Source of the DNA: Nesterenkonia lacusekhoensis | GTDB lineage: Bacteria > Actinomycetota > Actinomycetes > Actinomycetales > Micrococcaceae | Length of the DNA stretch: 64,000 nucleotides | Assembly (NCBI RefSeq): GCF_017876395.1 | Contig: NZ_JAGINX010000001.1 | Coordinates: forward strand, 186,001-250,000 | Reading direction: 5' to 3' | Shown here: positions 56,512 to 63,031 of the stretch, piece after piece | Numbering within the stretch: position 1 is the first letter of the stretch | Layout: the number at the start of each line of letters is the position of its first letter | Position numbers and translations under genes: made by a program | The notes under the pieces: model-generated | Told to the model about the DNA's origin: nothing | Databases searched by the model: none | The model's input: only the letters and a program-made list of their open reading frames with translations

Positions 56512-58422
56512 TCAGCCGTCGATGATCGCCACCAGTTCGTCCAGGAAGCTGGAGAAGTCGGTACCGCGGCGCAGCAGCCGCTGCACGGAGTCGGGCTCGT
56601 TGAAGACCTCCACCAGCTGTTCGAAGATCGTCTGGAAGGCCGAGCGCTCCTCTTCGCTGAAGGCCACCAGAGCCACTACCTGGACTCGGCACTCGCCCCA
56701 GGGCAGCGATCCCTCTGCGATGCCCAGTGAGATGGCTGTCGTGGTGCCGGTCATCTTCAGCGCATGCGGCACCGCCAGCGAATCGGTGAAGGCTGTGGAG
56801 GAGAGCTGCTCGCGCTCGATCGTCCGCTCGATGTAATCCTGGTCGATCACGCCGCGATCCCGCAGCGGGGCGGCCAGCTGACGGATCGCGTCCTCTTCGT
56901 CGGCGGCCTTCAGCGGGCGCAGGAAGGCAGAAGGGTCCAGATAGGACTCCAGCTCGCCGCGGAGTCGGGCGAGCCGGTGGGCACGGCGCCGCCTGCCGGC
57001 CGCCGCCGCGATCCTCTCCATGTCCTGATCCGTCAGGAAGGGCGGAAGGTGGACGGTGCGCTCATCCGGAGTCGGCGGCTCGATGGTGGTCAGCACCAGA
57101 TCGGTGTCGATGGAGGACCAGTCCGGATCCACCCGGGTCTCCATCCGGGTCACCTCGATCCCGCTGCCCAGGGACTTGTCGATCCGGGCCCGCAGCAGCT
57201 CGTGCATCTCGTAGTAGCCGGGAGAGACGATCGTGGCGGTCAGTGCCTCCCCGGCCCGCCGGCTGCGCTCCAGCTGCCCGCCCACATGCATGGCGATGTA
57301 GGCGATCTCGTCATCGCGCAGCGGGATCTCCAACACCTGGGAGAGCTCGTCGGAGATGGAGACCGCCACCTGGAAGATCATCGGATAGGCCGTCTTCAGC
57401 GAACGGGTCAGCGGATTCCGCGACCAGGCCTGTTCCCGGGCGCGGTGAGCCAGGTTCTGCACGTGCAGGCTCAGCCGCCGCACGAAGGCCGCATGGTCGA
57501 TGTCCACCGTGTACTCCCGAGCGGCCCGCTGCACCGCCTCCGCCACAGCGGCCTCCACTGCCGGGTCCAGGGCGATCTGGGTGGAGGGGTCCCCGCCGGG
57601 GGCGACCACCCGGGTCAGCACCAGGGAGGCCAGATGGTTCAGATCTCCACGGCCCAGGCTGACTCCGAAGTGCCGGCTGCTCAGCCGCCCCAGCAGCTGA
57701 GCGATCCGCTCCTGCTGCTCGGCGGGCTCCACCGGAGTGCCCTCCACGGCGCGCCCCTGGGAGACGCGCTCTGCGGCGATGGCCACATGCAGCACCACAT
57801 CGGCGGTGGCGAATTCGTTGACGTAATAGCCCTGCTCGGCCAGCTCAGCGGCCAGTTCGCTCTTGAAGGGGCCGAAGGCGGAGCTGTCCACCGCGCCGAT
57901 GCCGGCACCGCGACGCATCCCCTCGACGTCGAAGTAGCCGTGCTCCATCTCAGCGTGAGCCAGTGTGGAGACCAGCTTTCGCTGCTCCAGCTCCCCGCCG
58001 ACCAGCAGCAGCCGCGGACCGGAGCGCTCCAGGGCCAGACCGGTGCCGTGCAGCAGGCTACGCACCCGGACCAGGTCTGCCTCCAGGGTGGCCTCGGAGA
58101 CATGCAGGCGTTCGGCCGCCCGGTAGAGGTCCACGCCGGAGGAGGCCTCCAAGAGCTCGCGGACCAGGGCGTGCAGCCGGTCCCGGGGAGCGGTCTTGGG
58201 CCGGGAGTCCTTGGCTCGCAGGCCGGCCAACACGCTGCGGTCGGCGCGGTAGCCGGCCGGTCCGGACTCCACCGCGCCGTCGGCCTGGGCGTTGATCGCT
58301 GCGATGTAGGAGCGCACACTGCGCGGGGTCACTCCCAGACGATCCGCCAGGGCCGCCGAAGGCATCCATCCCTCTTCGCGCATGAGCAGCCCGATCAGCT
58401 GTTCCTGACGTCTGCGGCTCAC
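56512..58422 (-). CDS. PRD-type transcriptional regulator of mannitol PTS (MtlR-like)
   Basis: 636 residues: N-terminal HTH domains (LMREEGWMPSAALADRLGVT and LYRAAERLHVSEATLEADLV), two PTS regulation domains (about 185-395) with candidate phospho-His in VVLHVAIAAERV, RLSLHVQNLAHR and AYIAMHVGGQ, an EIIB-like domain and a C-terminal EIIA domain of the mannitol/fructose type (His in AVPHALKMTG). In the EIIB-like domain the Cys position holds Ser (ATIVSPGYYEMHELL), so that site should not accept phosphate. It would activate the divergent mannitol operon when phosphorylation by EI, HPr and the EII enzymes signals substrate. ATG at 58422. Confidence 0.88.
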   Translation of the reverse strand: MSRRRQEQLIGLLMREEGWMPSAALADRLGVTPRSVRSYIAAINAQADGAVESGPAGYRADRSVLAGLRAKDSRPKTAPRDRLHALVRELLEASSGVDLYRAAERLHVSEATLEADLVRVRSLLHGTGLALERSGPRLLLVGGELEQRKLVSTLAHAEMEHGYFDVEGMRRGAGIGAVDSSAFGPFKSELAAELAEQGYYVNEFATADVVLHVAIAAERVSQGRAVEGTPVEPAEQQERIAQLLGRLSSRHFGVSLGRGDLNHLASLVLTRVVAPGGDPSTQIALDPAVEAAVAEAVQRAAREYTVDIDHAAFVRRLSLHVQNLAHRAREQAWSRNPLTRSLKTAYPMIFQVAVSISDELSQVLEIPLRDDEIAYIAMHVGGQLERSRRAGEALTATIVSPGYYEMHELLRARIDKSLGSGIEVTRMETRVDPDWSSIDTDLVLTTIEPPTPDERTVHLPPFLTDQDMERIAAAAGRRRRAHRLARLRGELESYLDPSAFLRPLKAADEEDAIRQLAAPLRDRGVIDQDYIERTIEREQLSSTAFTDSLAVPHALKMTGTTTAISLGIAEGSLPWGECRVQVVALVAFSEEERSAFQTIFEQLVEVFNEPDSVQRLLRRGTDFSSFLDELVAIIDG

Positions 58423-58576: not shown

Positions 58577-59197
58577 ATGAAGATCCTGGTGGTGTGCGGC
58601 GCGGGCGCGTCGTCCACGTTTGTCGCCCAGCGGCTCAACAGCGCTCTGCGCGCCGAAGGCCTCGGGCATCAGGCCCACGCCGGGAACGGGTCCTCCCTGC
58701 TCTACGAGCTGGACACCGCCGACGTCGTGCTGCTGGGCCCGCATATGGCGGACACGGCAGACGACATCCGCGGCCTGACCGGAGAGCGCGGCCCCCTCAT
58801 CACTGTGCTTCCTGACGATATCTACAGTGACCTCGACGGAACCCGGGCCCTCTCGGTGCTTCGCGAGGTCCTCGCTGTGCCTGCCGGGAAGAGCTCCCCG
58901 GCAGCCGAGATCACGGAAGAAGGAAACTCCATGTCCGCATCGCGCACCGTCACCGTCGCATCCTCCTCCGGGCTTCATGCCCGCCCGGCCAAGCTCTTCG
59001 TGGAGGCAGTCCAGGGCACCGGCTCCACGATCACCCTGGCCAAGGGTGAGAAGAGCGTCAACGCCGCATCCATCCTGACCGTGCTCTCCCTGGGCGTGGA
59101 GAAGGGCGACGAGGTCACCCTCACCGCTGAGGGCGGCGAGGAGGAGCAGGCTCTCGACACCCTTGAGCAGTTCCTCACCACCGATCACGACGCGTGA
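58577..59197 (+). CDS. EIIB-HPr fusion protein of the PTS
   Basis: One 206-residue frame holds two PTS proteins. Residues 1-101 are a EIIB domain of the lactose/cellobiose-like superfamily (MKILVVCGAGASSTFVAQRL, phospho-Cys7). After a 17-residue linker, residues 119-206 are a full-length HPr with phospho-His134 in SGLHARPAK and the regulatory Ser165 (Ser46 of other HPr) in KSVNAASILTVLSLG. An AAGGA site lies six bases before the ATG of the HPr part (58931), so free HPr may also be made. The linker has no stop in any of the three forward frames. HPr would pass phosphate from the downstream PtsI to the EII enzymes. Confidence 0.85.
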   Translation: MKILVVCGAGASSTFVAQRLNSALRAEGLGHQAHAGNGSSLLYELDTADVVLLGPHMADTADDIRGLTGERGPLITVLPDDIYSDLDGTRALSVLREVLAVPAGKSSPAAEITEEGNSMSASRTVTVASSSGLHARPAKLFVEAVQGTGSTITLAKGEKSVNAASILTVLSLGVEKGDEVTLTAEGGEEEQALDTLEQFLTTDHDA

Positions 59198-60943: not shown

Positions 60944-63031
60944 ATGTCCACCGCAACGGCTGAATCAGCCGACGGACAGAAGCAGCCCGGCGCCCTGCGC
61001 GTCGGGATCCAGAAGGTCGGATCCTTCATGTCGGGCATGATCATGCCCGTGATCCCTGCGCTCATCGCCTGGGGGATCCTGACCGCAGTGCTGGTCAACA
61101 TCGGGGAATGGACCACCGGCTGGGCGCCCGCAGAGGCCCTGGACACGGCGATCTTCCCGATGATCCATTACCTGCTGCCGATCCTCATCGCGGTCCAGGG
61201 CGGCAAGATGGTCTACGACATGCGCGGCGCCGTCGTCGGCGGCATCGCCGCCCTCGGCGTCATCGCCGGATCTGACCACATCGTCGACCAGTTCAACGCC
61301 GGGCTGCCCGAGGCCGAGCAGCTCGAATACGTCCACATGTTCATCGGGGCGATGATCCTGGGCCCGCTGGCCGCGTGGATCATGAAGAAGCTGGACGGCC
61401 TCTGGGAGGGCAAGATCCGCGCCGGCTTCGAGATGCTGGTCAACATGTTCTCTGCGGGCATCCTCGGATTCTTCCTGGTGATCGGCGGATTCTTCGGACT
61501 GGCCCCGGTCATCAACGGACTGATGAACGTCCTGGAGACCGTCGTGGGCTTCCTGGTGGACCACGGTCTGCTGCCGCTGGCCTCGGTGATCATCGAACCG
61601 GCCAAGGTCTTCTTCCTCAACAACGCCATCAACCACGGCGTGCTCACCCCGCTGGGCATCCAGGAGGCCTCCGGCGAGGCCGGACAGTCCATCCTGTTCC
61701 TGCTGGAGGCGAACCCGGGCGTGGGCCTGGGTCTGCTGCTGGCCTTCTCCGTCTTCGGCGTCGGCGCCGCCCGGGCCACCGCACCCGGCGCTGCGATCAT
61801 CGTCTTCCTGGGCGGCATCCACGAGGTCTACTTCCCCTATGTGCTGATGAAGCCGGCGCTGCTGCTGGCAGTCATCGCCGGCGGGGCCACCGGTGTGACC
61901 ACCAATATGCTGTTGGAGGTCGGCCTGCAGGGTCCGGCCGCGCCGGGCTCGGTCATCGCCGTATACCTCCAGTCATTGGGCGGCGGCATGGGCAACATCA
62001 TCGGCGTCACTCTGTCCTGGATCCTCGCGGCTGCGGTGACCTTCGCCGTCGCGGCGCTGATCCTGCTCAAGGACCGGAAGAAGGACCTGGCCGGCGAGGA
62101 CGGGTTCACCTCGGCTGTGGCCAAGACCGCCGCCGCCAAGGGCAAGTCCTCCAGCCACCTCTCCGACCTGGCCGACGCCGCTGCGGTGCCAGCCCAGACC
62201 GAGAAGGTCATCCAGAAGGTCATCTTCGCCTGCGACGCCGGCATGGGCTCCTCCGCCATGGGTGCCTCGGTGCTGCGCAAGAAGTTCAAGGCCGCCGGCA
62301 TCGAGGGCGTGGAGGTCACCAATAAGGCCATCGCGGCCCTGCCGGGAGACACCGACCTGGTCATCACCCAGGAGTCGCTGACCGACCGTGCCCGCGGCCA
62401 GGAGCCGGAGGCCATCCACGTCTCGGTGGACAGTTTCATGGACGCACCCGAATATGACGAGGTCGTGGAACTGGTGCAGAACTCGCGCCAGCCCGCCGCG
62501 GTGGGAGCAGGGGAGGGGTCGGCGTCGTCGGCCGCCCCTGCTGTGTCCGCTGCGTCGGCTGAAGCTGATGCAGCACCGGTCCCCGAGACCGCTGACTCCG
62601 GCATTCTGACTCTGAGTCAGGTGCGGATCCACTCCGGCTCGGCCACCCAGGAGGAGGCGCTGGCTGAGGCCGCGCAGATCCTGGTCGACTCCGGCGCGGT
62701 CACCGAGGACTACCTGCAGGCCATGAAGGACCGTGAGGCGACCGTCTCCACCTTCATGGGCAACGGCCTGGCCATCCCGCACGGCACCAACGACGCCAAA
62801 GACGCGGTCAAGGCCTCGGCGCTGTCGGTGGTCCGCTACGACGGCGGTGTGGACTGGGCCGGTGATCAGGCCGACTTCGTGATCGGCATCGCCGGTGTCG
62901 GCGATGAGCACCTGGAGATCCTCTCCAGGATCGCCGTGCTCTTCGCTGAGGAGAACGAGGTCGCTCAGCTGCGCGCAGCCTCCAGCGAGGAGGAGCTGCT
63001 CCAGATGCTCTCCGCCGTCAACGACGGCTGA
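60944..63031 (+). CDS. mtlA: mannitol PTS transporter EIICBA
   Basis: 695 residues from ATG at 60944 (AGGAAGG eight bases upstream; ATG at 60926 is an unlikely extension). Imports mannitol as mannitol 1-phosphate. The EIIC membrane domain (about 20-370) starts [20 protein letters not shown] and includes the conserved [15 protein letters not shown] has phospho-Cys430 ([18 protein letters not shown]). An Ala/Ser-rich linker leads to EIIA with phospho-His613 ([11 protein letters not shown]). All three domains look complete. A small CCTTGA/TCAAGG hairpin lies just before the start. Confidence 0.96.

Follow-up and report, generated by a model that had tools for sequence, protein, structure and literature searches.

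The general phosphocarrier HPr of Nesterenkonia lacusekhoensis, the only one found in its genome, is encoded in one reading frame with a preceding PTS EIIB domain. We hold it probable, with some reserve, that this gene arose by a recent lineage-specific EIIB-HPr fusion, and that phosphate transfer by the tethered HPr, dual products and a sensor role of EIIB would go with it. The features concerned are collected in Table 1; coordinates refer to the window, that is, the whole stretch of 64,000 nucleotides that was analyzed.

Table 1. Positions of the fusion gene, its parts and the neighboring genes in the window.
Feature	Coordinates	Strand	Remarks
EIIB-HPr fusion gene	58577..59197	+	206 aa; open frame, shared by N. 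cremea
EIIB domain, residues 1-92, lactose/cellobiose type, Cys7 in CGAGASST	58577..58852	+	Pfam PF02302; structure matches
Linker, residues 93-118	58853..58930	+	In relatives, a stop codon parts both genes here
Internal Shine-Dalgarno (SD) AAGGA, 6 nt 5' of ATG 58931	58920..58924	+	Identical in N. cremea
HPr (ptsH) with its own ATG; His134 and Ser165 in fusion numbering	58931..59197	+	Pfam; sole HPr found in genome
mtlR, PRD-type activator (HTH_11, PRD, EIIA_2)	56512..58422	-	Pfam; divergent from fusion gene
ptsI (EI), sole one found in genome	59218..60873	+	ATG 59218 likelier start; family search
mtlA, mannitol EIICBA with its own EIIB and EIIA	60944..63031	+	ATG 60944 has the better SD

The frame runs from ATG 58577 to TGA 59195-59197 and comprises 206 codons with no stop inside. 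Both Pfam domains exceeded their curated cut-offs: PTS_IIB (PF02302) was matched at residues 2-90 (E 2.2e-10, 41.5 bits against a cut-off of 23.6) and PTS-HPr (PF00381) at residues 122-201 (E 2.5e-27, 95.2 bits against a cut-off of 23). That a single frame holds both an EIIB domain and a full HPr, as proposed in a preliminary description of this DNA, was thus confirmed. Using NCBIfam, the HPr model TIGR01003 scored 88.1 bits on the fusion protein (cut-off 47.9) and the lactose IIB model 46 bits, below its cut-off of 110; by sequence, the closest solved chains to the EIIB part were the cellobiose IIB structures 4mge and 2l2q. The same description had called Cys7, His134 and Ser165 intact, and counting in the sequence placed all three as expected, His134 being HPr residue 16 in GLHARP (SGLHARPAK) and Ser165 being HPr residue 47 in NAASIL. 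The first part, with a score above the cut-off and an N-terminal catalytic Cys loop, belongs to the lactose/cellobiose family of PF02302, and the second, with a score above the cut-off and the active-site His of GLHARP, to the HPr family. As no EIIA or EI domain was recognized by Pfam in the fusion protein, it falls outside the diphosphoryl and multiphosphoryl transfer proteins (FruB, MTP), in which HPr is joined to EIIA and/or EI. Ser165 is present, and HPr kinase gave no match in the genome in a search of unsure sensitivity, the control matching only 3 of 14 genomes and missing B. subtilis; Actinobacteria are described as devoid of HPrK (PMC2405797).

The internal start that had been pointed out earlier is also in place, in frame, with AAGGA at a spacing of 6 from ATG 58931. 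Pairing to the anti-SD was predicted at -8.4 kcal/mol for this ATG and at -8.6 kcal/mol for the EIIB start; among the 1563 ATGs that the window holds on its two strands, 5.8% reach -8.4 kcal/mol.

The same fused frame, gapless and 95% identical, was found in N. cremea (L007/L036). Since it occurs there without an indel, we judge the fused frame to be neither chance nor assembly error. That the two genes are truly separate and were joined by a sequencing or assembly artefact is hardly credible: separate genes in 12 of the 14 genus genomes carrying the pair would speak for it, but in the independent assembly of N. cremea the frame is likewise gapless, with substitutions and no indel in the linker, and on this ground assembly error was ruled out. 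Separate genes in close relatives, together with an evident base change at this place, had been named beforehand as grounds against a fusion. Such relatives do exist, but no single base change can be named, and because N. cremea shares the fusion the separate genes do not refute it.

Comparison of the window with N. cremea yielded an omega of 0.067 for EIIB residues 1-92 (2 nonsynonymous and 10 synonymous changes), 0.19 for HPr (5 and 9, respectively) and about 0.9 for the 26-residue linker, which holds only 7 changes (5 and 2). dS was 0.10-0.15 in the fusion gene, lower than in EI (0.29) and in MtlR (0.43). These small counts fit two maintained domains and a freely changing linker and, within such numbers, indicate that EIIB is under purifying selection while the linker drifts. 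HPr has the same SD and ATG in the two species, and the predicted anti-SD pairing of the internal start is -8.4 kcal/mol in each. Because only two fused genomes are compared, at a dS of about 0.15, the kept SD weakly suggests dual products. In predicted folds, the internal start codon was unpaired for 37% (window) and 60% (N. cremea), the internal SD for 61% and 37%, and the EIIB start for 67% and 58%, so that the modeled accessibility of the internal start gives no consistent picture.

PTS components of the genome (2.74 Mb, 99.9% complete) were inventoried by family searches. A single PF00381 match among the 8 candidates scored ruled out a spare HPr elsewhere that would make the fusion dispensable. 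Further, one EI, two PTS_EIIC (PF02378), one EIIC-GAT and four EIIA_2 were found, as well as four PTS_IIB, located in MtlA, in a FruA-like frame, beside a Ula-type EIIC and in the fusion. All three EIICs found (PF02378 twice, EIIC-GAT once) have another EIIB, leaving none over for that of the fusion, and lactose-type EIIA (PF02255) had no match in the genome. Within the families searched, the fusion's EIIB has neither a cognate EIIC permease nor a lactose-type EIIA; service to an EIIB-less permease was ruled out for PF02378 and EIIC-GAT, and among permeases of these two families the domain looks like an orphan. Beyond the window, two 448-aa ORFs of the same genome (L097:8253-9599 and L117:2380-3726), whose first 60 residues (MPAREPSRGEPYTEAVKADC...) differ once, resemble duplicates of a single gene of transposase type; one is situated about 2.5 kb past fruK, the other about 2 kb ahead of the gene for the Ula-type EIIA-EIIB.

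Thirty Nesterenkonia genomes were surveyed for the arrangement of both genes. Fused EIIB-HPr occurred in 2 (window species and N. cremea) and adjoining but separate genes in 12; EIIB was at the locus with HPr elsewhere in 3 (G002, G007, G024), matches to EIIB and HPr lay on different contigs in 2 (G008, G025), HPr was at the locus without EIIB in 6, only a distant HPr was present in 1 (G028) and 4 gave no match. The 12 include N. pannonica (G016/L039/L100), the assembly of which is poor (62% complete, several split genes, a stop inside HPr), making its frames unreliable; it was counted as separate. When the genus, Microbacteriaceae and others were taken together, excluding loci with no adjacent pair and those repeating the first 60 bases of an EIIB already counted, 52 distinct pairs were obtained, 50 separate and 2 fused. 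Among the separate pairs, 28 have a four-base overlap (ATGA), 3 another overlap, 15 a gap of 0-60 and 4 a gap of more than 60, and an SD motif lies upstream of HPr in 47 of the 50. In G012, the EIIB stop is a TAG in the HPr frame, 33 bases 5' of the HPr ATG; a pair can therefore be one stop codon short of fusion.

A tree of MtlR (17 rows) unites the two fused genomes in one clade and six EIIB-less genomes in another, both with support of 100/100; deeper in the tree the branching is left open, and none of the genomes with separate genes can be singled out as nearest. The exact base change behind the fusion cannot be traced in these sequences, as the spacers align unreliably. With 50 of 52 pairs separate and the fused pair forming one clade, the internal start is to be read as the ancestral ptsH start. 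Since most relatives in the genus have separate genes, the gene looks like a recent fusion of neighbors, not an old design.

Further EIIB-HPr fusions were sought more widely. None was found in 198 genomes of the phylum, in which rows reaching HPr from about residue 76 on were not individually read. Two candidates were rejected: G395:C8 (residues 32-198 aligned, 905-aa frame) was read as EIIA-Man - HPr - EI, and G037 (residues 57-206 aligned, with a TAG inside) as EI followed by a separate HPr. A six-peptide scan of 84,980 species genomes, which reaches close relatives only and may leave out records very near the window's own, returned 52 loci with N. cremea as the sole fused one. On plasmids, none of the 72 records with a match spans 80% of the query, and no description of an EIIB-HPr fusion or of an orphan EIIB was found in the open-licence literature searched. 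These searches cannot exclude distant or independent EIIB-HPr fusions. Neither the domains nor the locus nor gene fusion in itself is novel; what is new, within the searches made, is the combination of EIIB with HPr in a PTS fusion protein.

Divergent mtlR followed by EIIB, HPr, EI and mtlA is the order in most mapped loci, and Microbacteriaceae share it. The locus of Microbacterium, Leifsonia and other Nesterenkonia agrees with that of the window in gene content and order, in the divergent mtlR and in the start of ptsH, and its members are apparent orthologues; it differs in that EIIB and ptsH are separate, often with the ATGA overlap. In the window, the listed EI ORF opens at GTG 59194 and overlaps the stop of the fusion gene, with an SD pairing of 0.0 kcal/mol compared with -5.6 kcal/mol at ATG 59218; mtlA probably starts at ATG 60944 (SD -7.7 kcal/mol) and not at the listed ATG 60926 (+1.9 kcal/mol). 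A second, distant HPr-like gene (33-39% identity) was observed just past mtlR in L113 (7113-7352) and in several Microbacterium loci, among them L055, L057 and L061.

Of the 60 loci whose EIIB reaches 38% identity or more, a count in which N. cremea and N. pannonica each appear twice, 58 have EIIB divergent from MtlR and within 450 bases of it (exceptions L083 and L085). EIIB also occupies the interval from mtlR to mtlA, with neither HPr nor EI found in it, in G002 (L111) and in Cryobacterium L073, L076, L078, L080 and L082. By this comparison EIIB is tied more closely to mtlR and mtlA than to HPr, since it keeps its place whether or not HPr stands between. The N-terminal loop of EIIB hardly varies and stays close to MKILVVCGAGASST; Cys7 was present in every EIIB row aligned. 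Six genus genomes keep mtlR, HPr, EI and mtlA without EIIB, and EIIB is therefore not essential to MtlR there. In Cryobacterium L074, L075 and L077 a second such EIIB was seen beyond mtlR, which is thus flanked by two EIIB genes.

MtlR of B. subtilis responds to PTS phosphorylation through an EIIB-like and an EIIA-like domain (PMC3217849). Common to that system and the present one are a PRD activator, EIIB-like and EIIA-like domains and a mannitol PTS next door. In B. subtilis the PTS parts of the mannitol permease are said to dephosphorylate MtlR (PMC3217849), whereas here an extra lactose-type EIIB adjoins mtlR, and the Cys of the EIIB-like region of MtlR, recognized by eye between PRD and EIIA_2, is replaced by Ser. 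By analogy with B. subtilis MtlR and from its position (divergent beside mtlR in 58 of 60 loci, also where HPr is lacking), the most likely role of EIIB would be in regulation of the mannitol locus. The region in MtlR reads VSPGYY in the window, N. cremea, G012 and N. pannonica, compared with VCPGYY in most relatives, including the remaining genus genomes compared. Ser also occurs in two Microbacterium rows (L044, L054), and L112 lacks the Cys there too. All 8 MtlR rows lacking the Cys (two species twice) have EIIB, and all 6 EIIB-less rows, which form but one clade, have the Cys; a link between this change and the presence of EIIB is too sparse to use.

The favored reading of recent fusion can be laid out as follows. 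An ancestor would have carried an orphan EIIB gene with ptsH close behind, stop and start often overlapping. On the branch to the window species and N. cremea, the EIIB stop would have been lost with the frames matching, such that translation passes through a short linker and on to HPr. Within the long protein, the HPr domain would take phosphate from EI at His134 and, tethered, would serve the EIIA domains of MtlA, FruA and the Ula-type system; FPr within FruB acts as a carrier and offers a model for this. The retained SD and ATG would also give some free HPr, the gene making both forms. EIIB would remain an accessory or sensor domain of the mannitol locus, most likely acting via MtlR, now tethered to the general carrier. 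For PTS flux the fusion may be close to neutral. Dual products, full-length protein and free HPr, had been suggested before and are plausible, because the internal start corresponds to the start of the separate ptsH genes in relatives.

It is also conceivable, though unlikely, that the long form alone is produced in appreciable quantity, in which case the cell's HPr would be the 206-aa protein and the internal SD-ATG a decaying relic. No stop lies near ATG 58931, so that termination-reinitiation coupling, which relatives with a four-base overlap (28 of the 52 pairs) could use, would be lost. Moreover, HPr functions within larger proteins elsewhere, such as the DhaM-type IIA-Man-HPr-EI protein in L133. 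FruB and other fusion proteins are further cases (PMC2405797). A mere relic is at odds with the identity of SD and ATG between the two species while the linker next to them drifts, and with an internal SD whose strength roughly equals that at the EIIB start. Still less do we expect a purposeful EIIB-HPr relay, with HPr passing phosphate directly to Cys7 or EIIB~P to HPr and the proportion of long and short forms setting PTS tone. The intact catalytic residues and the lack of a match to lactose-type EIIA for this EIIB in the genome would suit it, but EIIB persists beside mtlR in genomes with no adjacent HPr and is fused in only 2 of the 52 pairs. The tethered relay of the preliminary description, moreover, runs against the order EI > HPr > EIIA > EIIB, in which HPr normally phosphorylates EIIA, not EIIB, and an EIIA domain must stand between (PMC2405797). 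Direct transfer from HPr to EIIB is therefore unlikely.

HPr is found in longer chains in FruB, in multiphosphoryl transfer proteins and in IIA-Man-HPr proteins (PMC2405797). FruB (EIIA-Fru and FPr) and the multiphosphoryl transfer proteins (IIA, HPr, EI) share with the present protein an HPr that follows another PTS domain in the chain and so has an N-terminal extension by nature (PMC2405797). The fusion described here differs in having EIIB, not EIIA, as partner and no EI, in comprising the general HPr of the genome and not a pathway-specific paralogue, and in keeping the internal ptsH start. HPr behind another PTS domain in one chain is equally a property of actinobacterial IIA-Man and HPr proteins, those of Leifsonia xyli and Corynebacterium diphtheriae being examples (PMC2405797); these have an EIIA-Man partner and do not contain the general HPr, and in the cases of that source they belong to a dihydroxyacetone kinase operon (PMC2405797).

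More speculatively, and in our estimation rather doubtful, the orphan EIIB beside mtlR could be an undescribed phospho-sensor of the mannitol or general PTS locus in Micrococcales, which in the clade with the Cys-to-Ser change in MtlR was tethered to the only HPr, one gene then giving free and sensor-bound carrier in a fixed ratio. The fusion amounts to a natural experiment, in which the only HPr found in the cell, normally a small, freely diffusing carrier, has become attached to a second PTS domain. Provided that the long form is made, this cell would show whether one tethered HPr can serve several permeases. The relatives, in turn, expose a conserved EIIB gene next to mtlR, with no apparent permease of its own, as a candidate regulator.
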